A stretch of 64,000 nt of DNA from Butyrivibrio proteoclasticus B316. Lineage in GTDB: Bacteria; Bacillota; Clostridia; Lachnospirales; Lachnospiraceae. The DNA lies in the NCBI RefSeq assembly GCF_000145035.1, contig NC_014390.1, positions 122,326-186,325 of the forward strand, written 5' to 3'. The position numbers were made by a program, and so were the translations under genes. Position 1 is the stretch's first letter. Each line of letters begins with the position of its first letter. The notes under the pieces were generated by a model that ran no database searches, was not told the DNA's origin, and saw nothing but the letters and a program-made list of their open reading frames with translations. Of this stretch, positions 1 to 14,214 are shown in pieces.

Positions 1-1230
1 ATCCCCTTCTGTCAGTCCTTGAACAACTGCGTGATCGGTGATCGCTATACCAGGCATTCCCCACTTGTATGCCTGCAAAATGATATCTTCGGCACTAGAA
101 ACCGCATCCATATCACTCATTTTTGTATGACAATGTAGCTCTACTCTTTTTCTTGGGGCATTATCGACTCTCTTCGTCGTAAAATCAGGAATTTCTTTGA
201 TTCCCACAACGCTCTGGATGGAAACTTCATGGTCAAAATTATCAAGTGCAGCTATTCCTTTTAACTTTATGAAAGCACCCACATGGATTTTTTCCTCAAG
301 TTTTGCTACTTGCTCCTGTTTGGCAAATATCTTAACTTTGATGCTGTCCGTAAAGTCAGTAATGGCAAACATCAGAATAGCTTTTTCATTTTTTATGTCT
401 TTACGTTCATACTTAATAATCTGTCCACGAACAACAATTTCACCTATAGCCCCCTCGATATCGATAATCTGCGTAATTTCTTCATCAAAGTTTCTGCCAT
501 AGATTATTGATGGATCATCTGGTATTTTTGAAAACTTTCCTTTAGCAAAAGTCGCACCTTTCTTGATATCCTGCTTTGACTTTTCATTGCTCCAATTACT
601 ATCCTGCTTTTTTTCTACCTTTTCAGATCTGGATTCAACAACCTTGATAGCATCAACCTCTACAATCTCAGGTCCTTTTTCTATATGGACTGCATCGTAT
701 GTATATTGAGGCTTAGTTCTTTCTACCGCCTCCCTGTATGTAATATTAAAATTGACATTCAATCCGCAACGCTCATTAAAAATCTTTTCAAATACGCGCT
801 TTATATCCTGAGCCTTTTTCCTAGTAATCACGTTTTCTTCAAGACATATGTTCACATTAGAATCATCTGGATACTCAAAAGTAGCCCTTTTTATGATGGT
901 ATGCTCAATTGGATCATAATTCTTGAATTCCAGAAAGATACTCTCCGAATAAAAATCCATGAGATATTTAGGCGTATATTGTGAAGACAGTGTAAATTTT
1001 TCATATACTTTCACCGTAACGTTAACCCCAGAAAAAAGCTGGTCTTGAATAGACTTTTCAATCTTATAAATTGTACTTTTTTCGATTAATATGCTGCTTT
1101 TGATGTAAATACGTATAAAATCATGCTTCTTAGTTGATGAAATCTTCTCAATCTCAACACTTTTCATATCATTGAAAATATCATCATCGACCTTAAGCAT
1201 GGGAAATGCTTCAAAAAACATTCTGTTCAT
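1..1230 (-). CDS. polC: PolC-type DNA polymerase III alpha subunit, N-terminal part (runs off the left edge)
   Basis: PolC is the Gram-positive replicative DNA polymerase with built-in proofreading. About 410 residues are visible. The N-terminal region resembles the PolC N-domain, followed by an OB-fold-like stretch (IEGAIGEIVVRGQI, then VGAFIKLKG). The start of the PHP domain follows, with HCHTKMSDMDAV and GMPGIAITDHAVVQ near the cut end, both highly characteristic of PolC. The ATG at 1230 overlaps the stop of the upstream gene as ATGA, which points to translational coupling. The catalytic part lies outside the window, so it is unknown whether this copy is active, unlike the degenerate relatives at 3447-4445 and 5855-7297. 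A second replicative polymerase on a plasmid is unusual. Confidence 0.85.
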   Translation of the reverse strand, partial: MNRMFFEAFPMLKVDDDIFNDMKSVEIEKISSTKKHDFIRIYIKSSILIEKSTIYKIEKSIQDQLFSGVNVTVKVYEKFTLSSQYTPKYLMDFYSESIFLEFKNYDPIEHTIIKRATFEYPDDSNVNICLEENVITRKKAQDIKRVFEKIFNERCGLNVNFNITYREAVERTKPQYTYDAVHIEKGPEIVEVDAIKVVESRSEKVEKKQDSNWSNEKSKQDIKKGATFAKGKFSKIPDDPSIIYGRNFDEEITQIIDIEGAIGEIVVRGQIIKYERKDIKNEKAILMFAITDFTDSIKVKIFAKQEQVAKLEEKIHVGAFIKLKGIAALDNFDHEVSIQSVVGIKEIPDFTTKRVDNAPRKRVELHCHTKMSDMDAVSSAEDIILQAYKWGMPGIAITDHAVVQGLTEGD

Positions 1231-1511
1231 AATTCGTTTGCTCCATTTATTCCTTGGGGTTCATCCCCCTGTTCTGTTTTGGAACAGGCAATCACCAAAT
1301 CATCAAAGATGATATATTCACCCGGCTTGATCTGACTGATATACTTGGCAACTTTATCCAGGTCTAAGTCTTTAAGCGCGCACATCCTGACCATATCATC
1401 GACATCTGCGAATTCCCCTGGCCGGAGATTATGCATATATTCTGATAGCCTCTCAAGATCAAACTCTATTTCATCTTCCGGCTCATTATGTTTTTTTCTT
1501 TTTGAGGCCAT
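1227..1511 (-). CDS. Small acidic protein co-translated with polC
   Basis: This 94-residue protein is unknown to me. It contains two similar units: residues about 20-45 (LERLSEYMHNLRPGEFADVD) and about 52-75 (LDKVAKYISQIKPGEYIIFD). They share the pattern L-x-x-[VL]-x-x-Y-[MI]-x-x-[LI]-[RK]-P-G-E, so it is an internal tandem repeat of about 33 residues. AGGAGG lies just upstream of the ATG. Its stop overlaps the polC start, so it may be a polymerase accessory protein, but that is only inferred from position. Confidence 0.75.
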   Translation of the reverse strand: MASKRKKHNEPEDEIEFDLERLSEYMHNLRPGEFADVDDMVRMCALKDLDLDKVAKYISQIKPGEYIIFDDLVIACSKTEQGDEPQGINGANEL

Positions 1512-1625
1512 AAAAAATTCCCTCCTGATGTATAAAAAGGTTATATAAGTATAAAAAACAAAGTGGACACATTATGACCACGTCGAATTATTGCTTAATT
1601 AAGGTTATGTTTTCTCCAGATTTAC

Positions 1626-1664
1626 ATAATAAAAAAAGCGATGTACATTTTTTAGTACATCGCT
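1626..1664 (-). terminator. Hairpin terminator, dispersed family copy 1
   Basis: A perfect 10-bp stem (1637-1646 with 1655-1664, AGCGATGTAC/GTACATCGCT) is followed on the minus strand by a T-tract and TATTATGTA. It lies between the SGNH hydrolase and the polC operon. Compared with copy 2 the stem has a G-C to A-T change with pairing kept. Confidence 0.75.
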
Positions 1665-1707
1665 CTCTTGCGAGCATAATAGTATTTTGGGCTATATGAA
1701 CCATAAA

Positions 1708-2340
1708 TTAAATTGCCTGAATAACCTTATATATTTCGTCTGCAAGTATCTTGTGCCCCTCAGGAGTCAAATGCAATGAATCTGTCTCTGATGGATATAT
1801 ATACTGAGCTGCATTAAAGAAAATACATCCTTTACTGTCAGCAATTTTCTCGTAATATTCATGGAACTTTTTAGACTCATCAATAGCATTTTCAGTGAAT
1901 GCCCCATAAAACGGAGAGTACTTTATGCCAGCACCTATCTCTGGAGGAGAAACCAGAATAATCTCTGGAACAAAGTCCTGTTTTTCTGCAGTAAATTCTT
2001 TTATTACATCAATGAGAATGCCTGCATTTTCAGCTATCTGCTCAGCTGTAAGATGGAATGTCTGCTTGAGATCATTGCTCCCAAGCATCAGAATCAATAT
2101 ATCTATTGGCTTGTGTGAATTGAGACATGGTCTCAAATAATCAAGACCGTTCTTCCATCCATCAATTGGATCATCGTGAATAGTCGTTCTTCCATTACAG
2201 CCTTCCTCGATAACTGCATAGTCACTCCCAAGAAGCATCTGTAGTCTTCCAGGATACCTAATATCCTTTGGATACCTCATTCCTGTCTCTGGAATATAGC
2301 CATATGTATTTGAATCGCCATAACAAAGGATTGTTTTCAT
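1708..2340 (-). CDS. SGNH/GDSL-family hydrolase (esterase/arylesterase type)
   Basis: This 210-residue protein has the SGNH hydrolase blocks: block I GDSNTYGY at residues 8-15 with the nucleophile Ser, block III LGSNDL with the catalytic Asn, and block V DSLHLTPEGH near the C-terminus with the Asp-x-x-His pair. The length matches cytoplasmic arylesterase/TesA-like members, and no signal peptide is seen. These enzymes hydrolyse acyl esters; the substrate is unknown. It is the last gene before hairpin copy 1 and has no evident link to the replication genes beside it. Confidence 0.9.
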   Translation of the reverse strand: MKTILCYGDSNTYGYIPETGMRYPKDIRYPGRLQMLLGSDYAVIEEGCNGRTTIHDDPIDGWKNGLDYLRPCLNSHKPIDILILMLGSNDLKQTFHLTAEQIAENAGILIDVIKEFTAEKQDFVPEIILVSPPEIGAGIKYSPFYGAFTENAIDESKKFHEYYEKIADSKGCIFFNAAQYIYPSETDSLHLTPEGHKILADEIYKVIQAI

Positions 2341-2462
2341 CGCCTATGTACCTCTTGAAATTAGTCATACTTATAATAAAACATTCTTAAGCACGTTTAA
2401 ATCACATCAAATATATTAGTTCCACTACATATGTTATTACCTAACAATTCATAAACATATAA

Positions 2463-3308
2463 TCAAAACTCTATCCTAGCTAAAAGCCCTTTCTCTATAC
2501 GTGATATAAGAGCTTCTTCAATCCCTAATTTACGTGGCTCTTTTTGCGAAGAAAATACTAATTGTTTCTCATCATTAAGCATGACATCAATTATATTAAC
2601 CAATTCGCTTGATGCTTCACTTTTGCCCACAAAACAATCTATGTCATCTATAAGAAGAACGTCCAGGGACCTATAAAAATCGACAAATTTGTTTGAATTC
2701 CCATTTGTTTTCATATCCATGACATCGTTTATAAACTTTTCCGCTAAAATATAAAATGCACGCTTGTCGTCACTTTCATGATTAATATAATCCTCTATTG
2801 TTTTCAAAAGGTGTGTCTTTCCTGAACCGTGATCTCCATAGATATATAGCGGATTATATGATTCTTTACGCGGATCTATGATTAACTGTGCTGCTTGAAA
2901 TGCAAAGTAATTCCCTGAAGAAACACGAAAGTTCAAGAAACTATACTTATCCATAATCTGCCATTCCTGTTTCTCAAGATAGCTCATATAATGGCTACTT
3001 CCGTCATAATGCACTTGGGGAAGTTCTGTTAATCCAAAACATTCCATTATCTTCGGAATATATTCCTCACCAATATTACAGTTCATATATAGAATCGGCT
3101 TTCCTTTTGAATTAAACTCCACTCTACCTCGCGGGTAATAGTAAAATGGCTTATTACTACACTCCTTAGGTTTTACAAAGTCCCACAGAAGCTTATGATT
3201 GTAGTTTTTTCCCGACTTAGCAACTCCAACAGTTGCATCCGCTTCAAAAGGGAAAGCTAGTATTGAATTGTCTACAAGCCAAAACACGCCTCTTTTTGGT
3301 TCACCCAT
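2463..3308 (-). CDS. DnaA AAA+ domain fused to an unknown N-terminal domain; lacks domain IV
   Basis: Residues 1-110 form a domain I recognise only as a small hypothetical family (RGVFWLVDNSILAFPF, VAKSGKNYNHKLLWD, YYYPRGRVEF, EEYIPKIMECFGL). Residues 122-281 match DnaA domain III: KYSFLNFRVSSGNYFAFQAA, YNPLYIYGDHGSGKTHLLK (Walker A 158-165), LLIDDID (Walker B 218-224), and a box-VII-like ISRIEKGL at the end. The lid and the DNA-binding domain IV of a normal DnaA are absent. A stand-alone domain IV is encoded at 13406-13756. The ATG overlaps an upstream 36-residue ORF by 8 bases. It could be an ATP-dependent DnaA modulator; that role is inference. Confidence 0.85.
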   Translation of the reverse strand: MGEPKRGVFWLVDNSILAFPFEADATVGVAKSGKNYNHKLLWDFVKPKECSNKPFYYYPRGRVEFNSKGKPILYMNCNIGEEYIPKIMECFGLTELPQVHYDGSSHYMSYLEKQEWQIMDKYSFLNFRVSSGNYFAFQAAQLIIDPRKESYNPLYIYGDHGSGKTHLLKTIEDYINHESDDKRAFYILAEKFINDVMDMKTNGNSNKFVDFYRSLDVLLIDDIDCFVGKSEASSELVNIIDVMLNDEKQLVFSSQKEPRKLGIEEALISRIEKGLLARIEF

Positions 3309-3411
3309 ATATACGCTCCTTACGTAATTTTGTATAACAAAGATGCTCCAACTTAGAATATGCCCTATCTGTATAGCTCAGTCCTTCACCGCATTTACTT
3401 ATTGTCTCCAT
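3301..3411 (-). CDS. Short ORF homologous to the N-terminus of the adjacent PolC-like gene
   Basis: The 36-residue product contains LSYTDRAYSKLEHLC, nearly identical to LTYTEQAYIKLEHLC at the start of the PolC-like protein at 3447-4445. The TGA overlaps the ATG of the DnaA-like gene by 8 bases. It looks like the stub left when a duplicated PolC-like gene was replaced after about 35 codons by the DnaA-like fusion gene. It may now serve only as a coupled leader peptide. The ribosome site upstream is weak, so expression is uncertain. Confidence 0.5.
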   Translation of the reverse strand: METISKCGEGLSYTDRAYSKLEHLCYTKLRKERIYG

Positions 3412-3446
3412 GCTATTCCTTTCATACAAATACAATTATTACCTAC

Positions 3447-4445
3447 TCAGTTAATAGTTATCCTATCTTTGCTATTTTCAGCCACTAAGCCACCATAATG
3501 CTGTATTTCCATCATACTATGTGCTCTTGGGAACACATGACTGATCTTTTCGCATGATTTTAAATACCACTCTGGGATTCCTGCATTATAAAGAAGCGCT
3601 ATAGTCTCAGCATCCCATCCATTTCTTTTAATCCTTCCCCAACGAACATCTTCAGAAATCCGATAAGCTTTTTCTCTATCAATACCATGATCAAGCATAA
3701 ACTCAAACACATCTTCTCTATGAGCAATCAGGTCCCCTAGCGCAATCTCATCCGATTTAGCAAGCTCTTCCGCATTTTCTTCCCAGACTCCGTTGCCTTC
3801 TACACTTAACCCTCTGCACTTCACTTTATCTTCAAACGTCAATGGATTTAATAGATCAAATACTGGCCCAGATAAAACCTTTCTACCAATTCTCTTTTGC
3901 CTAGATACCTCTAAAAAGCCAAAGAATAATTCGTTATCGTCGTAATAATCACGTAACAAAACTTGTGGGTCACTGATGCCAACGCCGTTAACTATTCCAC
4001 TCGTAAAATGTTTATATCTTATTCTTGCGTCGCCATTATAATGCTCAAAGTACTTAACTAGTTTTCTGTATAATTTACGCGTCACATTGATTTCAATAGA
4101 CAAGTTTTCTTCCCCATTAAGGCCAAAGCAAAATTCAGAATAAAGCCTAGGTCTAATCCTAACAGGGTCTATCTCTGAAATATCAAGAAGGTAGGCAACT
4201 ACTGATGATCCAGTATCTCCTCTAAGGCTGAATTTCTCATGTTTCGCCCCAACTCCACAAAGTGCCTCATATACAACAATAAATAAAGGCGCTGTCCCTT
4301 TCTTCTTTATCGCAGCAAGTTCTTTTTTCATTCGTTCGTATGCTTCCGATAAATCATTATCGTTATATCTATCGTATATCCTTGTAATACATAGATGTTC
4401 CAATTTTATATATGCCTGTTCGGTATATGTCAGGTCTTGAGTCAT
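3447..4445 (-). CDS. Truncated PolC-like protein without catalytic aspartates
   Basis: This 332-residue protein aligns by eye with the PolC palm and fingers but has no PHP, exonuclease or OB domains. KKELAAIKKKG plus LRGDTGSSVVAYLLDISEIDP (from about residue 74) corresponds to the PolC SRGSVGSSFVA palm region. The metal-binding PDIDLNF motif is replaced by LSIEIN (115-120), and the LDILGHD segment with the third aspartate is not present. The C-terminal GVWEENAEELAKSDEIALGD through VPEWYL/PEWYLKSC and FPRAH-like motifs follows PolC closely. It should not polymerise DNA. It may bind DNA, the clamp loader or nucleotides; that is inference. AGAAGGAG precedes the ATG. The FtsH-like gene is just upstream (28 bp). 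Confidence 0.8.
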   Translation of the reverse strand: MTQDLTYTEQAYIKLEHLCITRIYDRYNDNDLSEAYERMKKELAAIKKKGTAPLFIVVYEALCGVGAKHEKFSLRGDTGSSVVAYLLDISEIDPVRIRPRLYSEFCFGLNGEENLSIEINVTRKLYRKLVKYFEHYNGDARIRYKHFTSGIVNGVGISDPQVLLRDYYDDNELFFGFLEVSRQKRIGRKVLSGPVFDLLNPLTFEDKVKCRGLSVEGNGVWEENAEELAKSDEIALGDLIAHREDVFEFMLDHGIDREKAYRISEDVRWGRIKRNGWDAETIALLYNAGIPEWYLKSCEKISHVFPRAHSMMEIQHYGGLVAENSKDRITIN

Positions 4446-4472
4446 TTATCCTCTCCTTCTGAAGCCTTCTGA

Positions 4473-5735
4473 TTAGCCCCTCATTTCATCAATAATTCTC
4501 TGTATATCAGCATGAATAAGCGTTGTCTTAGCCAAAAGTTCATCTACAATTTTCTCGAGTAGTTGCCTATTCTCAACGATTATCTTTTTAACCTCTATGT
4601 AATTTCTTTCAAGTATCATTGCCATTGTTCTATTACGATTTTCTGCTGAATAGTCATTATCGTGATCTTCAATCCAATTATGGAAGCCATAGGCACAAAG
4701 ATTGTCTACTAGTCCTTTTGCATTATCAAAAGCATTTTGCAAATCACTATTGGCCCCATCATCAACTTCTCCATACACCAGCTCTGTAACAGCTCTTCCT
4801 GCAAGAGAGGTCTTTATCATATTTTCGATATACTCACAAGTCCATTCCTTTGGCTCTCTTCTGTAATACCTCACAAAGCCAACTTTATCGTCGTCCGCTT
4901 GTCTTATCGAAGCTATGCTCACACTACCAGGATCTAGAATCTCAGCCACTAAGGCATGACCTGCTTCATGATATGCAGCTCTAGTCAATGTCTCCTGACT
5001 CATGTGTGAATCAAATAATTCAGCTCCAAACTCCTGTGTAAGAAAGGCCTCAACTATGTTACTCATATCAATCTCTTTTTGCCTGTTAAAGGCAGCATTC
5101 ATCGCTGCATTTTTTATAACGCATTCAAGAGTCGCGCAAGATTCTCCTGAAAGGAGCTTAGCAATCGATATCTCATCCAATCTCCCCTTCATTCCTATTT
5201 TGTCGAGGTAGAATCTAACTATCTCTGCAGCCTCATAAGCCTTTGGTTCTCGAGTATTTATTCTTCTACCAAGTCTTCCAGGCCTTAGGAGGGAATCAGG
5301 AATCTTTCTGGTTCCGTTTGCTGTTGCTATAACAAAAACATCTTTTCCCTTTACTTCATCTATGCAGGACTGCACAGCAACGAATTCTTCGGCATCCTCG
5401 CTATCATCATTATCAGAAAACTTGTCAAGATCATCCATAAACACAATGGAAGGTGCATTTTCGGAAGCATTATTAAATGTCTCTACTACCTCATCTATAA
5501 ACTTTCCATCTGAGACTTTTTTTCTTAATACATAAGCTTTTCGATTTATAGCATTGATCAAAGCATTAACCATAGTGCTTTTCCCAGTACCAGGTCGCCC
5601 CACAATAATCACGCCATTGTCCATAGTAGCTCCAAGGTCTTTATATACCTCTGGATTATTGAGCATATCTATAATGATAGTTAGTTCTCTTTTTATTTCC
5701 TCATATCCCTTTATCTCTTCAAAGTAATCTTTCAT
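4473..5735 (-). CDS. Soluble FtsH-like AAA+ metalloprotease
   Basis: Numbering is from the ATG at 5735, giving 420 residues. Walker A is GRPGTGKS (46-53). Walker B reads IVFMDDLD, with Asp where FtsH has the catalytic Glu. The second region of homology has LLRPGRLGRR. The zinc site is HEAGH (256-260), with a candidate third ligand Asp331 in GANSDLQ. FtsH's N-terminal membrane helices are missing, so it is probably cytoplasmic. A longer reading frame reaches 5849, but its first 38 codons would be read through hairpin copy 2, whereas AAGGAAAGGA stands just before codon 5735. It sits between the two inactive polymerase homologues, suggesting turnover of replication proteins (inference). Confidence 0.85.
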   Translation of the reverse strand: MKDYFEEIKGYEEIKRELTIIIDMLNNPEVYKDLGATMDNGVIIVGRPGTGKSTMVNALINAINRKAYVLRKKVSDGKFIDEVVETFNNASENAPSIVFMDDLDKFSDNDDSEDAEEFVAVQSCIDEVKGKDVFVIATANGTRKIPDSLLRPGRLGRRINTREPKAYEAAEIVRFYLDKIGMKGRLDEISIAKLLSGESCATLECVIKNAAMNAAFNRQKEIDMSNIVEAFLTQEFGAELFDSHMSQETLTRAAYHEAGHALVAEILDPGSVSIASIRQADDDKVGFVRYYRREPKEWTCEYIENMIKTSLAGRAVTELVYGEVDDGANSDLQNAFDNAKGLVDNLCAYGFHNWIEDHDNDYSAENRNRTMAMILERNYIEVKKIIVENRQLLEKIVDELLAKTTLIHADIQRIIDEMRG

Positions 5736-5791
5736 ATCTCGTGGTCCTTTCCTTAACCCAAAAACGTCGTGTACTTTTATGGTCACATAAT

Positions 5792-5826
5792 AAATGAAGC
5801 GATGTGCTTTTTTTAGCACATCGCTT
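5792..5826 (-). terminator. Hairpin terminator, dispersed family copy 2
   Basis: A perfect 12-bp stem (5797-5808 with 5815-5826) is followed on the minus strand by CATTTATTATGTG. It lies after the DnaE-like gene and 56 bases upstream of the preferred start of the FtsH-like gene, inside the longest open frame of that gene. Confidence 0.7.
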
Positions 5827-5854
5827 TTCTCTGAAATAAAAGTATTCATATTTA

Positions 5855-7297
5855 TTATGGCAATATATCGGATTTGATTCCTCTGTACTTCTCCGCCGCC
5901 TCCATAAACTCTGATCGATAATATAATTTTAACCAGGCCATTTCATATATCATCAATGAAAAAGCAGCAACATGAGACTTGTTAAAGCTATATCTCGCTT
6001 TATCCCATAGCATATCAAATATAGCATTCGCCACGTCCATCCCCACAATCTTTGACGACGTAGCTCCATAAACAAATTCCTCTCTCATTTCTCCTATAGT
6101 AAATTGCTTTCTTTTCGATAAATCTCTACGGCATAAATCGCTTTTTTCAGGAGAAAAACCCCCTAAATCCTGCAATATCCTCATAATTTGTTCTTGATAG
6201 ATTACACAGCCATATGTTGTGGACAAAATCGTTTCAAGCTCTGGGCATTCATATGTAATATACTGTGAATTCTTGATGTTACGCAGATACTTTTCTATAT
6301 GTTCTTCTGACAAAGGCCTGTCCAACGTTATTGCTGCCATGAGCTCATCCATGTTTTTAGGTCTTATCACTTCATATAAAGCAGCGTTCCCAGCAACCAA
6401 TGGTTCATGATATTCATGCCATTTACCGTTATCATCAAGATGCCACCAAGTTGAATATGAATGAGGATCATCCTTGTCAAAGAAGAGAATACCATTAGTC
6501 TCACCTGATAATAGAAGCTCAAAAACAGCCGGATCGGTTTTATCAATTCTCACTATATCTATTCTCTCTCTTTTGCTTCTAGATATAATCTCGAGAGTGT
6601 CTTTGATTATTGAAAGCTCCACCCATTCTTTAATGCTAATATCTGCCATTTTCAAAAGCTTAGGCATTCCGCTTCCATACATTTCAGTAAGATACCCAAA
6701 TATCAAAGGTTTGGCCCCTTTCTCAACATCAATCCTAATACAGTAAGAGGGAGTCTCTCTACCCATGTTTAGGTAGCGTTCAAAGAGAAGATTTTCTTTT
6801 ATCGGATCAACTCCTGTTATTCCAAGGCAGTATGCCACCAGACTCCCCGGAAGGGCTCCGCACCCTGGAGATATCATTAGATTATTCGATCTCGCAAATT
6901 CGATTAAATCATAAATAATTAGAAATCCGCCTACCATTCCCTTTTTATTTATGACTTCAAGCTCATGCGCCAAGCGTGCATGAACATCCTCTGTTACATT
7001 AGGATATTTCTCAGAAAAGCCTTTGTGACACAGTTCTTCCAAAAAGCCAAAAGCAGTTTTACCATCTGGCACTAATCCACTCAATAATCCATCCTCACAC
7101 AGTTTTGAAAGGTATGCATTTGAGTTATGTATCGTTATTCCAGTTGCAGGACCATTATATAATAAAGCCCTCATCACTTTTACAGTTGTTTTCCCCTCAT
7201 CAACCGTTCTTTGAGTAGTCACATTGTATTTTTTATGGCCTTCTCCGAATATATACTCTTCAGATAGAACTATGTCTTTCGTCTCTTTAACCATCAT
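5855..7297 (-). CDS. Truncated DnaE-like protein with substituted catalytic residues
   Basis: The 480-residue protein aligns with the DnaE palm and fingers. CHKGFSEKYP and HELEVINKKGMVGGFLIIYD precede PGCGALPGSLVAYCLGI (144 on), where active DnaE has PGRGSAAGS. The metal motif PDxDxDF is replaced by PSYCIRID (183-190), so both aspartates are lost. The third aspartate (DFLGL) aligns with WVELS. The fingers are well kept: GCVIYQEQIMRI, LCRRDLSKRK and FNKSHVAAFSLMIYEMAWLK. The PHP domain and the C-terminal OB and tau-binding parts are absent. Catalysis is unlikely; a decoy, scaffold or regulatory role is possible (inference). AGGG lies before the ATG. Hairpin copies 3 and 2 flank it. Confidence 0.85.
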   Translation of the reverse strand: MMVKETKDIVLSEEYIFGEGHKKYNVTTQRTVDEGKTTVKVMRALLYNGPATGITIHNSNAYLSKLCEDGLLSGLVPDGKTAFGFLEELCHKGFSEKYPNVTEDVHARLAHELEVINKKGMVGGFLIIYDLIEFARSNNLMISPGCGALPGSLVAYCLGITGVDPIKENLLFERYLNMGRETPSYCIRIDVEKGAKPLIFGYLTEMYGSGMPKLLKMADISIKEWVELSIIKDTLEIISRSKRERIDIVRIDKTDPAVFELLLSGETNGILFFDKDDPHSYSTWWHLDDNGKWHEYHEPLVAGNAALYEVIRPKNMDELMAAITLDRPLSEEHIEKYLRNIKNSQYITYECPELETILSTTYGCVIYQEQIMRILQDLGGFSPEKSDLCRRDLSKRKQFTIGEMREEFVYGATSSKIVGMDVANAIFDMLWDKARYSFNKSHVAAFSLMIYEMAWLKLYYRSEFMEAAEKYRGIKSDILP

Positions 7298-7340: not shown

Positions 7341-7378
7341 ATAATAAAAAAAGCAATGTGCATATTTTTGCACATTGC
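7341..7378 (-). terminator. Hairpin terminator, dispersed family copy 3
   Basis: The stem GCAATGTGC/GCACATTGC (7353-7361 with 7370-7378) is followed on the minus strand by CTTTTTTTATTATGTA. It lies just after the dnaX stop and before the DnaE-like gene. Confidence 0.75.
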
Positions 7379-7398
7379 CTGTATCATGTTATCCCTCA

Positions 7399-8604
7399 TT
7401 AAGTCATTGTATATGTCCCATTATTGGTGATATGGAGCATATTTTCTATATACCTTGAATGTTCTTCAAGTATGCTTAACCGTTTACCATACTCGTTATC
7501 TGCACGAGATCGTTTACAAAGTTTAACAAACAAGGCTTCAATCATAACCCTTTTCTGCTCTGTGTACCGAATATCTGAGGACAGTTCAGAGAATAGTTGC
7601 AAAAACAACATAATGGTATCTGAATCTACCTTTCTGGCATCGTCCTTCATAATTTGAAGATTCTCGGATGAGGCTTCTATAAGGTTATCTATCTGGTCTG
7701 ACTTTTGTAACAGCATAAGATTTCGCAGGTACCAGATAATTTCATTTGTAAGCTGATAAAGATCTACCCCTTGAGCAACTTTCTCTGAAAGAACAACTAT
7801 TGCGGAATGTAAGTCTTTTTCATACAAAGCAAAGAACATCCTTCTCAGTGTCTTGGTATCGTCTATTCTTAGCGACTCCAAGGCAATATCGTACGATAGC
7901 TCTTTTCCATTGGCTACAAAAATAACATGTTCTAATATGCTCAGCGCGTCTCTCATAGAACCATCTGCCACCTTGGCTATGTATTGCAAAGCTGTCTCCT
8001 CCGCAGGAATTCTTTCTGCCTCAGTAACCATCCTAAGATGCTGCTCGATGATATCGATTGAAATTCTTCTAAACGCATATTGCTGGCATCTTGAAAGTAT
8101 TGTAGCTGGAACCTTATTCATTTCTGTCGTTGCCAGGATAAAAACTGCATAGGGCGGAGGCTCCTCCAGAGTTTTTAGAAGTATATCAAAGGCCTCCCCT
8201 CTTTTTCCATAAAGCATATGGACCTCATCTATTATGTATACTTTCCATTTACCTTTCATGGGCGGATAGGACACTTCTGCTATTATGCGCCGCACATCAA
8301 CCACCTTGCTATTGGATGCAGCATCAATCTCTATTATGTTTGCATCGCTGCCGGAAGCATAGGACTTGCAAAAATCGCATTCTCCGCACGGGTTTCCGTT
8401 TATAGTGTTCTCACAGTTGATTGCTCTAGCAAAGATCCTTGCTAAAGTCGTCTTCCCTGTTCCTCTTGTACCATGAAACAGGTAGGCATGCGAAACCATG
8501 TCATGTTTTACCTGGTTTCGAAGTGCCGTGACAATATAATCCTGCCCCTGGACCTCATCAAACGATTGTGGCCTAAACTTTCTATATAATGCTAAGTATC
8601 CCAT
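7399..8604 (-). CDS. dnaX: DNA polymerase III gamma/tau-type clamp-loader subunit
   Basis: From the ATG at 8604 the protein has 401 residues. YRKFRPQSFDEVQGQ at the N-terminus, Walker A GTRGTGKT (45-52), the zinc module NPCGECDFCKS, Walker B IIDEVHML, LLKTLEEPP, and sensor ATTEMNKVPATILSRCQQY are all intact DnaX signatures. It is shorter than tau of Bacillus (about 560 residues), so much of the polymerase- and helicase-binding tail is missing. The longer frame begins with GTG at 8616, but AGGTGG is well spaced for 8604. It overlaps the upstream zinc-ribbon gene by 13 bases. It is the only evidently complete replisome part in this island. Confidence 0.92.
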   Translation of the reverse strand: MGYLALYRKFRPQSFDEVQGQDYIVTALRNQVKHDMVSHAYLFHGTRGTGKTTLARIFARAINCENTINGNPCGECDFCKSYASGSDANIIEIDAASNSKVVDVRRIIAEVSYPPMKGKWKVYIIDEVHMLYGKRGEAFDILLKTLEEPPPYAVFILATTEMNKVPATILSRCQQYAFRRISIDIIEQHLRMVTEAERIPAEETALQYIAKVADGSMRDALSILEHVIFVANGKELSYDIALESLRIDDTKTLRRMFFALYEKDLHSAIVVLSEKVAQGVDLYQLTNEIIWYLRNLMLLQKSDQIDNLIEASSENLQIMKDDARKVDSDTIMLFLQLFSELSSDIRYTEQKRVMIEALFVKLCKRSRADNEYGKRLSILEEHSRYIENMLHITNNGTYTMT

Positions 8605-8801
8605 CTTACTATCCACCTGAATGATAAAAATGCTGTTCGGATCTTCGCTTTTTTCTCTTCTCGCCTATATTCTTGCAAATCCATTAGTGAAAAAGCTTCA
8701 TCAAACGAATAATATCTTTCACAGTCCTCACAATAATAACCATCTTCCTCTTGGAGCAGGAAAGGACAGCCACAATCCTCACAAATCAGTTCCTTTGTCA
8801 T
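8592..8801 (-). CDS. Small zinc-ribbon protein
   Basis: The 69-residue product has CEDCGCPF and CEDCERYYSF at residues 7-30, two CxxC pairs typical of a zinc ribbon. A basic helix EYRREEKKAKIR follows, and then a tail that overlaps dnaX in another frame. AGGAGG is upstream, though at rather long spacing. Overlap with dnaX suggests coupled expression. I do not recognise the family. Confidence 0.7.
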   Translation of the reverse strand: MTKELICEDCGCPFLLQEEDGYYCEDCERYYSFDEAFSLMDLQEYRREEKKAKIRTAFLSFRWIVRWDT

Positions 8802-8905
8802 AGAAATATTCTTATCCTCCTTTTAATATCTGACCCTTCCAAATTAGGTTCAATTAAAAGACTTGTGTTTCTTTTTTTAGATCATGCTTACCTTGTAGGT
8901 ACATA

Positions 8906-8940
8906 ATAAAAAAAGCAATGTGCTTTTTTTAGCACATTGC
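8906..8940 (-). terminator. Hairpin terminator, dispersed family copy 4
   Basis: The 10-bp stem GCAATGTGCT/AGCACATTGC (8915-8924 with 8931-8940) is followed on the minus strand by TTTTTTTATTATGTACC. It separates the 8984-9664 gene from the zinc-ribbon/dnaX pair. Confidence 0.75.
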
Positions 8941-8983
8941 CATCCTGCAGTACCCATGGATATATAAAAAACTCATTAGTGAC

Positions 8984-9664
8984 TTATACCCTACGGCTGT
9001 AATCACACCATGCTGCAAGAATCCCAAATGCACACTCTACTATTGCTTCACAAATCCCACACTTACGCATAAACCGAATGTCTTCAATCAATGATGCAAC
9101 AGAGGTGATATTTGCACACTTATGTAACCATGACTCATCTGACATTTCAGCCACCACATCAGAAATTAGCATATCCTTTTCCCTTAACACATCTTCTATA
9201 ATCTCCGTCCGTTTGCTCTCTGATACTATCAATATTGGAGATTTATCATATTTCATAATACTTGCTTCCTGATCAGTTAGGATTTCCATACATTCATCCT
9301 CAATTATCCTGCGGGTATCCTCAACCACAGACGCTATTAACGAAGGTGAAACTCCAATACAAAACGACTCTCTCTTACCAACACCAATATCCAGGTATTC
9401 ATCACTTCTAGAATATTTTAGTTTCCATCGTTCTTCCATTATTTCTTTTTTATACCTTGCAATATTTTCATCACTCATGCAAGGAAGCATATCTATATAA
9501 TGGAGCACAGATGCATGATAAGCTCTTGTATTTTGCGGTTCTATAAGATGTTCTTCAAAGTCGTTCTCATCCAACAAGCATTCCCCCAGGCGTAAAATCT
9601 CCGCCAATGCCTCATCTCTATTATTTTGGATTCTAGACACAAATCTTATTACTGTATTTTCCAT
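8984..9664 (-). CDS. Hypothetical protein, helical
   Basis: This 226-residue protein is unknown to me. It appears mostly alpha-helical, with no signal peptide or clear membrane span. Charged N-terminal helices (NNRDEALAEILRLGECLL) are followed by a segment with SPILIVSESKRTEIIEDVL. A cysteine-rich C-terminus contains KCGICEAIVECAFG. AAGGAAGAAGG precedes the ATG. It is a single-gene unit with family hairpins on both sides (copies 5 and 4). Confidence 0.75.
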   Translation of the reverse strand: MENTVIRFVSRIQNNRDEALAEILRLGECLLDENDFEEHLIEPQNTRAYHASVLHYIDMLPCMSDENIARYKKEIMEERWKLKYSRSDEYLDIGVGKRESFCIGVSPSLIASVVEDTRRIIEDECMEILTDQEASIMKYDKSPILIVSESKRTEIIEDVLREKDMLISDVVAEMSDESWLHKCANITSVASLIEDIRFMRKCGICEAIVECAFGILAAWCDYSRRV

Positions 9665-9718
9665 AATTTTACCTTCTTCCTTTTACAGCCATGGAAATAT
9701 ATCTTCTATTAAACATAT

Positions 9719-9753
9719 TAAAAGAGGCAATGTACTGTTTTTAGCACATCGCC
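9719..9753 (-). terminator. Hairpin terminator, dispersed family copy 5
   Basis: The stem is 11 bp (9726-9736 with 9743-9753). Two pairs are G-U wobbles if the minus strand is the RNA, and would be A-C mismatches in a plus-strand RNA. That supports function in the minus-strand transcript. Confidence 0.65.
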
Positions 9754-9785
9754 TTTTTTGCCGAATCTCTTTTTACAATTAAGCA

Positions 9786-9911
9786 TTACATATGATATTG
9801 AAGCCTGTTCTCGTATCTATAATTCTTGTAATCATCATAATTATAATATCGTGGCTCTTCCTGCAATATTTTACCATATGCGCACTCATCAGAAATTTTT
9901 AGGATAGTCAA
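9786..9911 (-). CDS. Possible tyrosine-rich small peptide
   Basis: A TTG-initiated frame of 41 codons follows AGGAGG, although only two bases separate the two. The product is hydrophilic and ends RYYNYDDYKNYRYENRLQYHM. It lies between the MBL protein and hairpin copy 5. The spacing is unusually short, so the true start or coding status is uncertain. Confidence 0.3.
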   Translation of the reverse strand: MTILKISDECAYGKILQEEPRYYNYDDYKNYRYENRLQYHM

Positions 9912-9934
9912 CGCCTCCTATGCACGAAATATCT

Positions 9935-11122
9935 TCAGATAAAAACCGTTTCTCCATCCTTAGGATCTGAGAGAACTGTTCCCTGCGGTATAACTAACTT
10001 CTTAAGTTCTTTTTCTTCAGCAGATGTATGATGGATAATAAGCGTATCTGGTGCCACAACATTTATTACATATTCCAAATCTTCTTTTGTAATATGTCCC
10101 GATACATGAATAGACTCAATCTTATTACAACACTGAAGAAACTTAGCAACAGTCGGCAATTCCCTATACCCTCTCCACATTGAATAGATTAAACAAGTGT
10201 CATTTGGGTACTTACCAAAGAACTCTTCAACATACGGAAGAAAAAAATCTCCAGCTCTAACTACCATTCCAAAGCCACGTTTCTCATAATCTTCTTTCTT
10301 ATCAGGATCGTATGGCCAAATTCTCCTTGATTTGAATGCTTCATCCCTATCAATGTCCGCTATCTTCATCAGTCTCTTTTGAAAACCATCGCATAGTCCA
10401 TGTTTCCCGCACGGGATAGCTCTCGAAAATGAAGCAATTCTGTCTATATTAGATGACGAAGCAAGTAAAAAGACATATTTATTTTCTTTGAGGATTCTTT
10501 TAAACTCCCCCTCTACCCACTGCTCATCATGACAAAATGGGGACTCTCTATCTATATTTGTACCTTCCGTTATCATTAAATCTATATGTCCAAGACTTCT
10601 AAAGGTCTCTTTTAGCTTTTCTCCATTAAAACCATGTAATCTGTAATCCCCAGTTATAAGAATTCTTTTATCATGGCCCTCGACTAAGTACATGAGAGAA
10701 TCAATAGCGGAATGATCTGAGGCTAAAGGCGTAATCTTAATATCTTTTATCTCTATTGCCTCTCCTTCAGTCAACGCCTGGATGTCTTGAGCCCATACAA
10801 CCTGACCAACACTTACCTTATGTTCCTGCTGAGCCTGAAGGATCCTTTTCGCAGTCTTTTGCATATATACGGGAATTCCCGCAAGAATTGCAGGCACTTC
10901 ACCGACATGATCTCCGTGATAATGAGTCAGAAAAACCGCATCACAGCCCACTTCGCCTTTTGTTACACCTTCGATACTTAGTGGTTTCTGATTGCCTTCA
11001 TCTTCTAGTGGCGCACCAAAATCAAATAGTATTCTAGCTTCATCAGTTGCTATTTCTGTACATACTCCGCCAATCTGACTCATTCCTCTATATGGAGTTA
11101 CCTTAATCTGCTTATCACTCAT
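9935..11122 (-). CDS. MBL-fold (RNase J/beta-CASP-like) metallohydrolase
   Basis: The 395-residue protein shows metallo-beta-lactamase motifs: VFLTHYHGDHVGE (HxHxDH, about 63-75), LASDHSAIDSLMY, ITGDYRLHG with the bridging Asp, and a C-terminal VSGHITKEDLEYVINVVAPDTLI with HHTS. That end resembles the SGHA and final-His motifs of RNase J and other beta-CASP nucleases. The middle holds a cap-like insert (ASSSNIDRIASF, YSMWRGYREL). It probably acts on RNA or DNA in the cytoplasm. The substrate is unknown. A gene for a nuclease-like protein (11139-11972) lies 16 bases upstream. Confidence 0.85.
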   Translation of the reverse strand: MSDKQIKVTPYRGMSQIGGVCTEIATDEARILFDFGAPLEDEGNQKPLSIEGVTKGEVGCDAVFLTHYHGDHVGEVPAILAGIPVYMQKTAKRILQAQQEHKVSVGQVVWAQDIQALTEGEAIEIKDIKITPLASDHSAIDSLMYLVEGHDKRILITGDYRLHGFNGEKLKETFRSLGHIDLMITEGTNIDRESPFCHDEQWVEGEFKRILKENKYVFLLASSSNIDRIASFSRAIPCGKHGLCDGFQKRLMKIADIDRDEAFKSRRIWPYDPDKKEDYEKRGFGMVVRAGDFFLPYVEEFFGKYPNDTCLIYSMWRGYRELPTVAKFLQCCNKIESIHVSGHITKEDLEYVINVVAPDTLIIHHTSAEEKELKKLVIPQGTVLSDPKDGETVFI

Positions 11123-11138
11123 TTTTTTACCTGCTAAA

Positions 11139-11972
11139 CTATAAATATTTAACTACCGAGATTTTTTTATCTTTTTCACTATAGCTGTACCAAATTGGCT
11201 TGATTTCAAGAAAATCCATCAACTCTATCAGTTTAGGTCCAGCACTCATATATTCCTTGTATTGGCTTTCTCCAAAAGGAAGCAGTGGTGCCGCTTTCCA
11301 TATTGTGTTCCCTTCAGGAATACTTAATCCTCGATATTTTCCCCTTAAGGAATCAGCTGCTTCACTTTTGTTTAACATTTCTCTATATGTATATGCCTCC
11401 ATTACAGCACGTACTAACGGCTCTGTATTATCTTCTTTTTTAAGTTCAAGTATTGTAAAGCAATTATTATCAAATGACACCAAATCACATTTACCTGGAT
11501 TGAAAAGCATGCTATTTTTTGATGGATTAGAGTTCGGGTCAGGATCGCATATACCACGAAGCTCTCCGTTTTCTTTCAGTAGCTTTTCAGTGTTACCTCC
11601 TATAGGCATTTCATAATCCAGTATGAATCCCAGATTATCGATTTTTACTAGTTCTTTACCTTTTCTACCTTGCTTAAAGATGATCATTGCTAGGTGTTTT
11701 TCATCTATTTTTCCATTTTTATCCTTTCTAGGTTCAGAATCAGTTGCTCCATCTCTGCTGTCGTATCTGTATTCCAAAGAATCTCCATTACAATTAACGC
11801 GTACTAAATCACGATAAAAGTGCTTATCAAATAACTCTTTATTATCAAGCAGGTACTTACACAGTTCTTCGCAGGCAGCTCCAGAAAACTCCTTGTCCAT
11901 TAACCATCTATAAAGAACATTGATACTCTTTGGATTTTTATGTATTTTTTCTTTTATTTTTTCAAATTCCAT
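11139..11972 (-). CDS. PD-(D/E)XK-like nuclease, hypothetical
   Basis: The family of this 277-residue protein is unknown to me. The stretch GKCDLVSFDNNCFTILELKK contains an Asp, then hydrophobic strands and ELK. This is the classical PD-(D/E)XK layout, as in restriction and repair endonucleases. Downstream VRAVMEAYTYREML could be the usual helix with a Tyr. AAGGAG precedes the ATG. It sits between the WYL regulator and the MBL protein in one minus-strand unit. Nuclease assignment is from the motif only. Confidence 0.65.
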   Translation of the reverse strand: MEFEKIKEKIHKNPKSINVLYRWLMDKEFSGAACEELCKYLLDNKELFDKHFYRDLVRVNCNGDSLEYRYDSRDGATDSEPRKDKNGKIDEKHLAMIIFKQGRKGKELVKIDNLGFILDYEMPIGGNTEKLLKENGELRGICDPDPNSNPSKNSMLFNPGKCDLVSFDNNCFTILELKKEDNTEPLVRAVMEAYTYREMLNKSEAADSLRGKYRGLSIPEGNTIWKAAPLLPFGESQYKEYMSAGPKLIELMDFLEIKPIWYSYSEKDKKISVVKYL

Positions 11973-11984
11973 ATATAATGCTCC

Positions 11985-13025
11985 TTACTTGTATCTTTTA
12001 TAGATATCCAACGATGCCTGTTTTATTCGTTCTCTCATGCTCTGCGGTTCTACAATCTCTGCATACTTGCCATATTGCATCACCCAATAGAAGAACGCAT
12101 CTGGATTACACTTAAGATCAACCACAATATCGGTCCCTTCACTGTAATTAATCCGAAGGTCTTTTCCGAAATTATCTACAAGTGTATCCATGAGGTTCTC
12201 ATTTGCTCTAAGCTTGAAATGCTCACTTTCTCCGGAAAACATGTAAACATGCTCAGCTATATGTCCTGCGATATTGAGACCATTCTCCAATCCTTTTACA
12301 GATTTCATTGGTTTTCGAGCATCCTTAAGTATCTCAACATCAGTTACCCTGTCCAATCTGTAGTGTGAAATATCATCATAAGCGTCATAGTTACCAATCA
12401 GATAATACTTACCTTTACTACTAATCATCTGATACGGGCTCACCACATATCTTATATCCCGCTTCGGATGGAGCTTTAAATCTGTTCCATACTGAAGATA
12501 TGTAAATCTTATCTTCTTCCCTTTTGAAATAGCAGTGTCAATTGCTGCTATAGATTCCATAACATTCTGATTCTCCGCATTCTTTCCACTAGATGCACTA
12601 TGGATATGAGATACATGGGCTTTAAAATACTTATTTGAAAACTTCTCAAGTTTTTTTACTAGCTGATGAGCCTCTTTATCCGTAATAGCTCCAGAAGTAA
12701 AGATACTGTCTATCATCAAACGCAGCTCGGCGTCTGTGAATTCTCGTTTCCTGAGAAAATAGCCTTTATCAGCTACTATGTCATACCCCATCTCTTGAAG
12801 GCTAGTAATATTGTTCTTTACTGCTCTTCGCTCACAGGTTGCGCCATATTCTGAATTTAGTAAGTCTATGATGTCCTGCTGCAAAAGTCTATGTTCACTA
12901 TCAGAATGTTCCTTAAGGATATCTAAGATGAGCATATTGAGCATTTTCTTCGTACTTGTTCCGTACATGGAATAATCCTCCAGGTCTTTTCCGTTACTAT
13001 CAACTAAATTATTATTCATGTCCAT
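11985..13025 (-). CDS. WYL-domain transcriptional regulator
   Basis: From the ATG at 13025 it has 346 residues; a longer frame starts at 13055. The N-terminal helix-turn-helix region (KKMLNMLILDILKEHSD, LLQQDIIDLLNSEYG, CERRAVKNNITSLQEMGYDI) leads to a WYL domain (KKIRFTYLQY, VVSPYQMISSKGKYYLIGNY, FRLDRVTDV-like) and a WCX-type C-terminus (FFYWVMQYGKYAEIVEP). It is a paralogue of 16736-17725. WYL proteins often control defence genes through a nucleic-acid or nucleotide ligand. Hairpin copy 6 lies upstream. Confidence 0.9.
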   Translation of the reverse strand: MDMNNNLVDSNGKDLEDYSMYGTSTKKMLNMLILDILKEHSDSEHRLLQQDIIDLLNSEYGATCERRAVKNNITSLQEMGYDIVADKGYFLRKREFTDAELRLMIDSIFTSGAITDKEAHQLVKKLEKFSNKYFKAHVSHIHSASSGKNAENQNVMESIAAIDTAISKGKKIRFTYLQYGTDLKLHPKRDIRYVVSPYQMISSKGKYYLIGNYDAYDDISHYRLDRVTDVEILKDARKPMKSVKGLENGLNIAGHIAEHVYMFSGESEHFKLRANENLMDTLVDNFGKDLRINYSEGTDIVVDLKCNPDAFFYWVMQYGKYAEIVEPQSMRERIKQASLDIYKRYK

Positions 13026-13100
13026 TTTACATCTCTCAATTCGATATATCGCCATATATTAACGCTTTTTAATACATTGTTTATAGTTCTTTCAAGAAAA

Positions 13101-13139
13101 TAATAAAAAGAACGATGTGCATTTTTTGGCACATCGCTC
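13101..13139 (-). terminator. Hairpin terminator, dispersed family copy 6
   Basis: The 11-bp stem (13110-13120 with 13129-13139) has one pair that is G-U only in the minus-strand RNA. It is followed by CTTTTTATTATT and ends the 13174-13395 unit before the WYL gene. Confidence 0.7.
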
Positions 13140-13173
13140 TTATCAATTATATGCAGTATTCATTTTTCACAAT

Positions 13174-13395
13174 TCAAAAATGTTCGATACCATACTTTTC
13201 CAAAAACGAGTATATCATAGACAACATACTCTCTTTTCCTCTGTATGCACAACCTTCAAGTATTGCTTCATTTTCGCAACCGAACTTGTCTAGAAGATAC
13301 GCATACCAACACACTCCATAAACGTTCTTCTTGCCCTCATCACAAGAATACTTCCGTAAAGCGTCTCTAAACACGTACTCAACTGAATCAGCCAT
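13174..13395 (-). CDS. Hypothetical small protein
   Basis: The 73-residue product (begins MADSVEYVFRDALRKYSC) is unknown to me. It appears helical, with four cysteines and several aromatic residues. GGGAGAGG precedes the ATG, and the gene follows the DnaA-domain-IV gene by 10 bases, so the two are probably cotranscribed. Confidence 0.7.
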   Translation of the reverse strand: MADSVEYVFRDALRKYSCDEGKKNVYGVCWYAYLLDKFGCENEAILEGCAYRGKESMLSMIYSFLEKYGIEHF

Positions 13396-13405
13396 TACCT
13401 CTCCC

Positions 13406-13756
13406 TCAGTGGTTATTGAACATGTACTCTTCTATAGCTGCAATCGAATATGCATAAGCACTGCCAGATTCCATTTCACGTTTAACTGAAAAGATGCCGC
13501 TCATCACCTTGGTATGGTCACGTATTCCCAGCATTTTTCCGATTCCTTCCAGCGACATATCTGTATATTTGCGACATAGATACATGATTAACGTTCTTGC
13601 AGAATCCAGTTTTTCATCTTTTTTCTTGGAAACAATGTCTCCCTCATCAACATGACAGTACTCACACACTGCTCTCATGATTACGGAAGGCTCTATTTCT
13701 GTATCTCTCTTTTGCAATTCAGATACTCGGTTGCTATCCATATATTGTTTCTTCAT
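13406..13756 (-). CDS. Stand-alone DnaA domain IV-like DNA-binding protein
   Basis: From the ATG at 13756 (AGGAG ten bases before it; a TTG frame reaches 13780) it has 116 residues. VIMRAVCEYCHVDEGDIVSK, then SARTLIMYLCRKYTDMSLEG and IGKMLGIRDHTKVM match DnaA domain IV. GxRDHTxV is the DnaA signature that contacts the DnaA box. No ATPase domain is present; the AAA+ part occurs in a separate protein at 2463-3308. It may bind DnaA boxes on the plasmid or host and compete with DnaA, or pair with the separate ATPase. Both roles are inference. Confidence 0.85.
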   Translation of the reverse strand: MKKQYMDSNRVSELQKRDTEIEPSVIMRAVCEYCHVDEGDIVSKKKDEKLDSARTLIMYLCRKYTDMSLEGIGKMLGIRDHTKVMSGIFSVKREMESGSAYAYSIAAIEEYMFNNH

Positions 13757-13794
13757 CGTTTTAATACTCCTATAATCCAAATTCTCTTTAGTAC

Positions 13795-14214
13795 CTAGTC
13801 AAAATCGCTCTCCAGACGTTCTTTTACCTCTGAGTCAGAATTGCCTTTATAAGGATTAGCGATGTTTGAAACTTCCGGCATTCTCAGATTTTTGATGTTA
13901 TCGTAAACTTGTACTATATCCCTCATATGAAAACCGTTAAGAATATTGATAGCCTCTCCTTCAGTAAGCCCAAACCGTTCCTGTAACTCAATCCTTAATT
14001 CTCTTCTTTCCCCAATATCTTGAAGGCCGTTGTAAGGCAGTTTTTCTGCCCTATCGCGATACTCTTTTGCATCTTCAAAGGTAATCCACTCCCCTTTATG
14101 ATCATCCCGCCGCTTCTGTATCTTCTTTATTTTTCGTGCTAATGCCTTTTTCCTTCTGGCCGGGCTATCTTTCTCAGATTCCTCTCTACCTTCATAATAT
14201 TCACTAAGTTTCAT
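13795..14214 (-). CDS. Hypothetical charged helical protein
   Basis: The 139-residue product has a very basic N-terminal stretch (RRKKALARKIKKIQKRRDD) suited to nucleic-acid binding. A helical segment with RRELRIELQERFGLTEGEAI and an acidic tail follow. I do not recognise the family. TAGGAAG precedes the ATG. It stands first in the unit with the DnaA-domain-IV gene. Confidence 0.7.
   Translation of the reverse strand: MKLSEYYEGREESEKDSPARRKKALARKIKKIQKRRDDHKGEWITFEDAKEYRDRAEKLPYNGLQDIGERRELRIELQERFGLTEGEAINILNGFHMRDIVQVYDNIKNLRMPEVSNIANPYKGNSDSEVKERLESDFD

Follow-up and report, generated by a model that had tools for sequence, protein, structure and literature searches.

We analyzed a stretch of 64,000 nucleotides (the window) that makes up the final third of pCY186, a megaplasmid of the rumen bacterium Butyrivibrio proteoclasticus B316 (contig C4:122326-186325), and in which relatives of replisome proteins are encoded next to a WYL-domain regulator, a metallo-beta-lactamase-fold (MBL) hydrolase and an FtsH-type protease. 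The B316 genome consists of four contigs (C1, 3,554,804 bases; C2, 302,358; C3, 361,399; C4, pCY186, 186,325), and these sizes agree with those given for the replicons, pCY186 included, in the published record (PMC2914790). A first-pass annotation had reported, on one strand within 14 kb, a PolC N-terminus, small PolC- and DnaE-like proteins (hereafter mini-PolC and mini-DnaE), DnaX, two parts of DnaA and the protease, and had treated them as one island. The coordinates and the orientation were confirmed, the named genes at 2463-13780 all lying on the minus strand (Table 1). The single island did not hold up: two separable modules, a plasmid replisome and an insertable cassette, are interleaved at this locus.

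For context, the remainder of pCY186 and the whole of pCY360 were compared, and genus-wide searches covered 79 Butyrivibrio genomes. Neighbouring genes were annotated by similarity to pCY186 and G039 proteins and by selected Pfam scans. No near match to the window was found in plasmid records, from which the records of B316 itself may be excluded.

Table 1. Features of the pCY186 window. Positions are those of the window; aa, amino acids; E, E-value.
Feature	Position	Strand	Basis or remark
polC, first 410 codons	1..1230	-	DNA_pol3_a_NI, OB, start of PHP
p94, 94-aa protein	1227..1511	-	overlaps polC start by 4 nt; no Pfam family
DnaA-AAA, 281 aa: PRGRVE-motif N-domain (~1-112) + DnaA AAA+ core	2463..3308	-	Bac_DnaA E 5e-41
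mini-PolC, 332 aa, palm + fingers	3447..4445	-	DNA_pol3_alpha E 3e-12; PolC model 110 bits
FtsH-type AAA+ M41 protease, 458 aa	4473..5849	-	AAA + Peptidase_M41
mini-DnaE, 480 aa, palm + fingers	5855..7297	-	finger E 5e-34, NTPase E 2e-30
DnaX, 405 aa	7399..8616	-	NCBIfam PRK05563 + TIGR02397, both above cut-off
69-aa cysteine-rich, zinc-ribbon-like protein	8592..8801	-	weak Pfam zinc-ribbon matches
226-aa protein	8984..9664	-	42% relative beside WYL on G010:C159
RNase-J-like MBL hydrolase, 395 aa	9935..11122	-	HxHxDH motif; recurs beside WYL
277-aa protein, cassette member in some loci	11139..11972	-	no Pfam family; weak relatives L297, L303
WYL-domain regulator, 356 aa, cassette anchor	11985..13055	-	WYL E 2e-12, WCX
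Stand-alone DnaA domain IV, 124 aa	13406..13780	-	TTG start; Bac_DnaA_C E 8e-22
p139, 139-aa protein	13795..14214	-	relatives before WYL in L096-L098, L305
Second Rep_3-type initiator, 263 aa	14660..15451	-	Rep3_N + Rep3_C
ParA-type ATPase	60797..61591	+	AAA_31, CbiA
ParB-like protein	62063..63055	+	ParB_N
Iteron array, repeat core ATGACGTAAAAGGGA	63226..63991	+	precedes Rep_3-type gene C4:29-1309 on the circular plasmid

A probable plasmid replisome

The apparent PolC N-terminus is an artefact of the window edge. The gene extends beyond it and is complete (C4:119083-123555), encoding an ordinary full-length PolC of 1,490 aa that possesses the exonuclease domain and, by alignment, the same PDIDLNF polymerase motif as the chromosomal enzyme. 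On the same strand, immediately 3' of polC and beyond the window, follow genes for DnaB, a DnaC/IstB-type loader, a Rep_3 initiator and a DnaA domain-I protein. DnaX, correctly named at first pass, exceeds both equivalog cut-offs (478 bits versus 400; 404 versus 250). It is 57% identical to the chromosomal DnaX and has a shorter C-terminal part (405 aa versus an open frame of 542 aa). Both p94 and the zinc-ribbon-like protein have counterparts elsewhere: p94 also adjoins polC on contig G039:C9 (56% identical), and the zinc-ribbon-like protein accompanies DnaX on sister contigs, with a 55% identical copy on G039:C9. SSB is encoded elsewhere on pCY186, and the plasmid also has a gene for a conjugation coupling protein. 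Neither clamp nor primase was found among the plasmid proteins scanned with Pfam (about 42 of the 210 listed frames), a coverage that such a gene could escape.

pCY186 carries three Rep_3-type genes. Ten of the 11 matches to ATGACGTAAAAGGGA found on the plasmid with at most two mismatches fall inside the array at 63226-63991, which is likely the origin. The Rep_3-type gene that follows it is related to the Rep_3 protein at C4:115146-116384; no iterons were found beside the Rep_3 gene next to DnaB in the stretches searched. With a Rep_3 initiator and iterons, pCY186 belongs to the Rep_3 iteron plasmids, which it also resembles in its ParA and ParB proteins, and the loader and helicase recall phage replication modules. 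Unlike either, it has a full PolC, DnaX and pieces of DnaA, and its sisters have a whole DnaA.

The same genes were found on other contigs. G039:C9 (174 kb, from another Butyrivibrio genome) carries p94, PolC, DnaB, loader and Rep_3 in the pCY186 order with 56-81% identity, its DnaX (57% identity) and zinc-ribbon companion being placed farther along the contig. The replisome block is nearly unchanged on G004:C12. The 34-kb contig G010:C159 has the loader, DnaB, DnaA, a truncated Rep_3 frame and a PolC in two overlapping frames (414 and 1,123 aa), for which a frameshift and a genuine split are both possible; no DnaX was seen there. Judged by identity and neighbours, a plasmid-type PolC was recognised in 4 of the 79 genomes including B316; this count leaves out fragments in G017 and G044 that match PolC in part, at 74-75%, and a decayed relative with many stops lies at G062:C3. 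In a quick tree, three plasmid PolCs formed one clade (support 99) beside 17 chromosomal PolCs. The repeated co-occurrence of these genes on other contigs makes the locus more than a chance assembly.

The description of the homologues as "split" fails for PolC and stands for DnaA, which is present in pCY186 as domain I (129 aa), the AAA+ core (within the 281-aa protein) and domain IV (124 aa), the latter two already recognised at first pass. Their identities to the DnaA of G039:C9 are 32%, 35% and 46% respectively. The lid between AAA+ core and domain IV is missing, the 281-aa protein having neither lid nor domain IV. Three sister contigs encode a 462-aa DnaA and a 172-aa DnaA AAA+ core between PolC and DnaB; the 462-aa protein of G039:C9 has all three domains according to Pfam, and the other two are 84-100% identical to it. 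The pCY186 pieces resemble DnaA and Hda in the DnaA-type core and in the separate domains I and IV. They differ in the missing lid, in the PRGRVE domain placed in front and in their scores, two pieces reaching 161 and 74 bits versus the DnaA equivalog cut-off of 343.9. The PRGRVE domain stands alone in L096-L098, L344 and G039, and among the 120 rows listed its fusion to AAA+ was seen only in the pCY186 protein and in an identical 219-aa piece. As a separate observation, this domain is joined to a Fic domain (PF02661) in P0136 (245 aa).

Plasmids usually rely on the host fork. Here, a fork of the plasmid's own would be loaded and driven by the Rep_3 initiators (along with DnaA, whole on the sister contigs and in three pieces in pCY186), the DnaC-type loader, DnaB, PolC and the short DnaX, and clamp and primase would be supplied by the host. 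The families present suggest that pCY186 likely runs its own replication fork. A plasmid-specific replisome, one of the options first put forward, is well supported for the intact PolC, DnaB, loader, DnaX and Rep_3. A plasmid lineage with its own initiator, loader, helicase, polymerase and clamp loader is unusual, as is a member in which DnaA is split into domains. One survey counts C-family polymerases as rare in plasmids (3% of its set; PMC3919608).

Mini-polymerases and the WYL-MBL-FtsH cassette

Mini-PolC and mini-DnaE share with PolC and DnaE the sequence and fold of the Pol III palm and fingers and are hence members of the C family by fold. In contrast to these enzymes, they lack the PHP domain, the later C-terminal parts and the stretch between the palm halves. 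The first-pass annotation had noted the absence of catalytic residues, and alignment bore this out: the Asp pair that marks an active C-family polymerase (equivalent to E. coli D401/D403) is replaced in both, mini-PolC having LSIEINV where PolC has PDIDLNF. Scores fall far under the NCBIfam cut-offs (mini-DnaE, 306 bits versus 1,260 and 262 versus 434; mini-PolC, 110 versus 873), and the matches of the mini-proteins in PHROGs and NCBIfam are confined to segments of longer polymerases from phages or bacteria. The two have separate origins, mini-DnaE from DnaE and mini-PolC from PolC.

Relatives of mini-DnaE were followed among the best 120 of 243 proteins, 32 of which entered a motif table. The Asp pair is missing in all 22 close rows (P0002-P0020, 19 rows of which some are short, plus pCY186, G039 and L304), the position of the third Asp being uncertain in the alignment. 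Among nine distant mini-sized rows it is missing in seven and kept in P0092 and P0100, and three of four others of 418-489 aa (P0056, P0083, P0108, P0118) keep it. P0092 (449 aa) and P0100 (470 aa), with Asp residues at the catalytic columns, could be C-family polymerases of very small size or genes truncated on short contigs. Among the matches listed, a full-length mini-PolC was found in G000, G117 and G232, the other rows covering the finger part only, and a whole-length mini-DnaE only in G000 and G039. Both families consist of open frames of similar length, and in the better-sampled pairs the ratio of nonsynonymous to synonymous substitution rates (dN/dS) was 0.16 for mini-DnaE and 0.26 for mini-PolC (without significance test). 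The mini-proteins hence appear to be kept by selection.

A viral home of mini-PolC was considered and rejected: in viral contigs the scan hit a single locus, which encodes a 790-aa PolC relative, and each of the 11 BFVD matches to the mini-PolC model (E <=0.001) was a phage polymerase or an unnamed protein, 652-1,329 aa long. The corresponding mini-DnaE scan of viral contigs retained 80 of 131 loci. Separately, pCY360 encodes a 982-aa DnaE relative (C3:195185-198133; L012/L003) with PDFDSD at the catalytic place, which may be active.

In pCY186 the genes for DnaX, mini-DnaE, the protease, mini-PolC and DnaA-AAA are consecutive, on one strand and separated by short gaps. The protease was rightly called FtsH-like: it combines AAA and M41 domains with intact Walker A/B and HEAGH motifs. 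It differs from FtsH in lacking a membrane-like N-terminal segment (top 19-residue mean hydropathy 1.23; 1.07-1.24 across eight relatives including the pCY186 protein) and in scoring 170 bits versus a cut-off of 600. It also matches a PHROG of unassigned function.

The recurrence of this cassette was followed through its WYL regulator. Of 22 WYL loci in the 79 genomes, 11 were counted (at least 67% identity) and 11 at 43-50%, representing a paralogous regulator, were set aside. The close loci hold the MBL gene in 10 cases, the FtsH gene in 8 and a replisome homologue in 6. Searching with the protease gave nine loci: eight at 57% identity or more, all among the 11 close WYL loci and beside the same WYL-MBL pair, and a ninth (38%) beside the paralogous WYL. 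The frame was also present in four of seven named genomes with mini-PolC (L096-L099), where WYL and MBL are joined by variable proteins and by an AAA+ gene that is FtsH-type or CbbX-like, the minimum being WYL-MBL-AAA+.

The replisome part varies from locus to locus. It comprises DnaX, mini-DnaE, mini-PolC and DnaA-AAA in pCY186, mini-DnaE in G039, mini-PolC in G008, DnaG in G056, mini-PolC with a mini-DnaE fragment in G065, and a 403-aa mini-DnaE with DnaA-AAA in G062. Without pCY186, five of the seven FtsH loci have a replisome homologue (four of seven if DnaG is left aside). In a rough background control with seven replisome queries, DnaG not among them, such a homologue occurred in 2 of 36 ten-kb segments of pCY360 and in 0 of 13 of G039:C9 outside the island. 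At an assumed background of 7% the chance of 5/7 is 3e-5; excluding G008 and G065, which were also reached by the mini-PolC search, leaves 3/5, with a chance of 3e-3, or of 3e-2 at 15% background.

The cassette and the plasmid replisome are found apart. On a chromosome-sized contig of G558 (2.7 Mb), the cassette occurs with mini-DnaE and a full-length DnaB and without the plasmid replisome. Each of the seven named mini-PolC genomes (L096-L102) gave one full-length DnaB match, one having an extra 72-residue piece, and hence contains no second DnaB of the pCY186 kind. Conversely, the backbone is present on G004:C12, and other genes occupy the place that WYL(356), mini-DnaE and FtsH take on G039:C9. 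One island acting as one system was therefore rejected, the cassette occurring without the plasmid replisome and the backbone without the WYL, mini-DnaE and FtsH genes of the cassette.

Several related arrangements were seen in passing. The chromid BPc2 of B316 has its own p139-WYL-MBL-FtsH cassette (L305:4527-9654; C2:116527-121654), in which MBL is fused to another cassette protein (727 aa), and encodes a DnaB C-terminal-domain protein at C2:132158. Beside the paralogous WYL lie a DnaQ-type exonuclease that stands alone and has a zinc ribbon, and a lone DnaB C-terminal domain (L306:11702-12373 and L310:4502-5356). On a contig of an uncultured Clostridium (L110:900-11139), a distant relative of WYL (27%), one of MBL (37%) and a single 709-aa PolC relative lie within 10 kb, hinting that the WYL-MBL-polymerase association may be older.

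The cassette was also compared with described systems. It resembles WYL-regulated anti-phage loci in its regulator and in having protease and nuclease-like genes nearby. It differs from them in that no PADLOC system was recognised; within 2463-13055 PADLOC gave only an AAA-level IetA match (the FtsH-like protein, through its AAA part alone), WYL, and weak PtuA/AbiLi matches. With the ImuA-ImuB-DnaE2 mutasome, as described in the literature, it shares a catalytically dead, conserved polymerase relative within a regulated multigene cassette. The mini-proteins are, in contrast, of the C family and of another fold, and no ImuA or DnaE2 was recognised beside them among partly annotated neighbours. 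A survey of bacterial polymerases deals, in its accessible part, with Y-family members that are dead and with PHP and exonuclease domains that are inactive, and names no dead C-family core there. The open-licence literature yielded no Butyrivibrio plasmid PolC/DnaB replisome, no dead C-family polymerase and no such cassette, in line with the first-pass view that no system of this composition has been described. A replisome carried by a plasmid varies a kind of system already known; neither the cassette nor the dead C-family cores had a described counterpart in this literature. More unusual than the replisome are two separately derived families of dead replicative-polymerase cores, which look conserved and are linked to protease, hydrolase and regulator genes.

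Possible roles of the cassette

The explanation that we favour, with a probability of about 45%, is a plasmid backbone running its own fork together with a mobile, WYL-controlled cassette in which the mini-proteins serve as bait or adaptor. Its frame would be the WYL regulator, the RNase-J-like hydrolase, a soluble FtsH-type protease or other AAA+ ATPase and often a PRGRVE protein, the replisome homologue being exchangeable. The mini-proteins would capture proteins that partner or attack the replisome, their catch would be processed by protease and hydrolase, and WYL would act as the switch; the outcome would be protection of replication or exclusion of phages or rival replicons. We infer the bait or adaptor role, next to a protease, because the homologue changes within a fairly constant frame, as it would with a bait, and we think that a decoy, another option of the first-pass annotation, is the best lead for the mini-proteins. 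If this is right, the replisome parts that are attacked in the rumen could be read from sequence.

Several observations weigh against this explanation. That the plasmid PolC replicates DNA independently is so far a deduction from protein families. Five of the 11 close WYL loci have no replisome homologue (G020 and G010 end at a contig edge), and the three most distant of the seven mini-PolC genomes (L100-L102) lack the WYL-MBL-FtsH frame in the stretch examined, L101 being cut upstream. A third mini-PolC pair gave a dN/dS of 0.43 at a dS of 0.06, and debris of the mini-proteins and of PolC exists. No cluster of DnaA boxes was found for the loose domain IV: TTATNCACA occurs twice in the window versus 3.6 expected, and pCY186 has at most three one-mismatch boxes per 400 nt. 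PADLOC, applied to 10 proteins, identified the cassette as no known defence system and has no model for the mini-proteins, DnaX or MBL. The mechanism itself, binding by the mini-proteins included, is predicted from sequence.

A sharper version, which we regard as tentative and rather improbable, is a modular guard of the replisome: the WYL-MBL-FtsH frame would hold dead DnaE and PolC cores, DnaA-AAA, DnaG, DnaB or DnaX as bait, and an inhibitor or hijacker that a phage or rival plasmid directs at such a replisome part would strike the bait and thereby trigger the effectors. In that case, inactive replicative polymerases would work as immune sensors, and the bait carried would reveal the replisome part under attack.

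Replication control is a serious rival because pieces of DnaA are involved, even if we consider it unlikely. Here, the mini-proteins and the DnaA pieces would be regulatory, Hda-like subunits of plasmid replication that set copy number against the host, DnaA-AAA and a dead polymerase core coupling fork assembly to initiator control; this would be a new way of governing initiation. The uninterrupted run of genes from DnaX to DnaA-AAA is consistent with it, as are the loose domains I and IV on pCY186, the fusion of DnaA-AAA to mini-DnaE in the database protein P0018 and, in L304, their close neighbourhood. Against it, however, stand the genomes in which the cassette occurs without a plasmid replisome, the G004:C12 backbone without WYL, mini-DnaE and FtsH, and the score of DnaA-AAA with the Hda model (TIGR03420; 60.6 bits versus a cut-off of 194.8).

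The bait or adaptor explanation also has to be set against the possibility, less probable still, that the mini-proteins are dominant-negative poisons against the replisome of rival plasmids, phages or the host. Dead palm-fingers cores of both replicative polymerases in a plasmid, mobile setting would suit such a role. The beta-binding and C-terminal parts, the expected route of a poison into the holoenzyme, are however absent, no immunity gene was recognised, and cassettes also hold apparently intact DnaB, DnaG or DnaX.

A WYL-controlled repair or damage-tolerance complex, with the dead polymerase as hub like ImuB in ImuA-ImuB-DnaE2, is improbable. Dead polymerases acting as hubs are known in the Y family, according to the literature, and MBL hydrolase and AAA+ protease could be its processing enzymes, but the annotated cassettes, covered by non-exhaustive similarity and Pfam scans, showed neither an active error-prone polymerase nor a gene for ImuA or a RecA-like protein.

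That the locus is a graveyard of decaying, functionless fragments of captured replication genes, as would be expected if the genes were not found together elsewhere and dN/dS were near 1, is suggested by the many-stop PolC relative and by finger fragments in L300 (89 aa) and L304 (62 aa), but is very improbable and was rejected for the main families, debris notwithstanding: the genes co-occur elsewhere, cassette order is conserved, the open frames are of similar length with the same Asp loss in every close mini-DnaE row, and the low dN/dS values, together with the double origin of the mini-proteins, argue against it.

Neighbouring genes and distant relatives

Directly after the paralogous WYL gene at 16736-17725, the window contains a McrBC-type pair at 17754-21216, made of a 794-aa AAA_5 and EVE protein and a 362-aa McrC-type protein. 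It is followed at 21817-23559 by a KAP-family P-loop NTPase gene with PADLOC matches to PifA, PDC-S20 and QatA. A 210-aa hydrolase-like gene (1708-2340), SGNH-type by eye, has a 75% identical copy at C4:63692-64333, and a piece of this family also ends the cassette in L303. Near the replisome block and beyond the window, pCY186 carries a caspase-type peptidase gene (C4:104819-106312) and a gene for a protein kinase of 1,112 aa that gave an AAA-like match (C4:109724-113062). Finally, relatives of DnaX (L104:17037-18723) and DnaB (L176:8096-8892) were found in consecutive short frames under table 11, a pattern that stop-codon recoding could explain.

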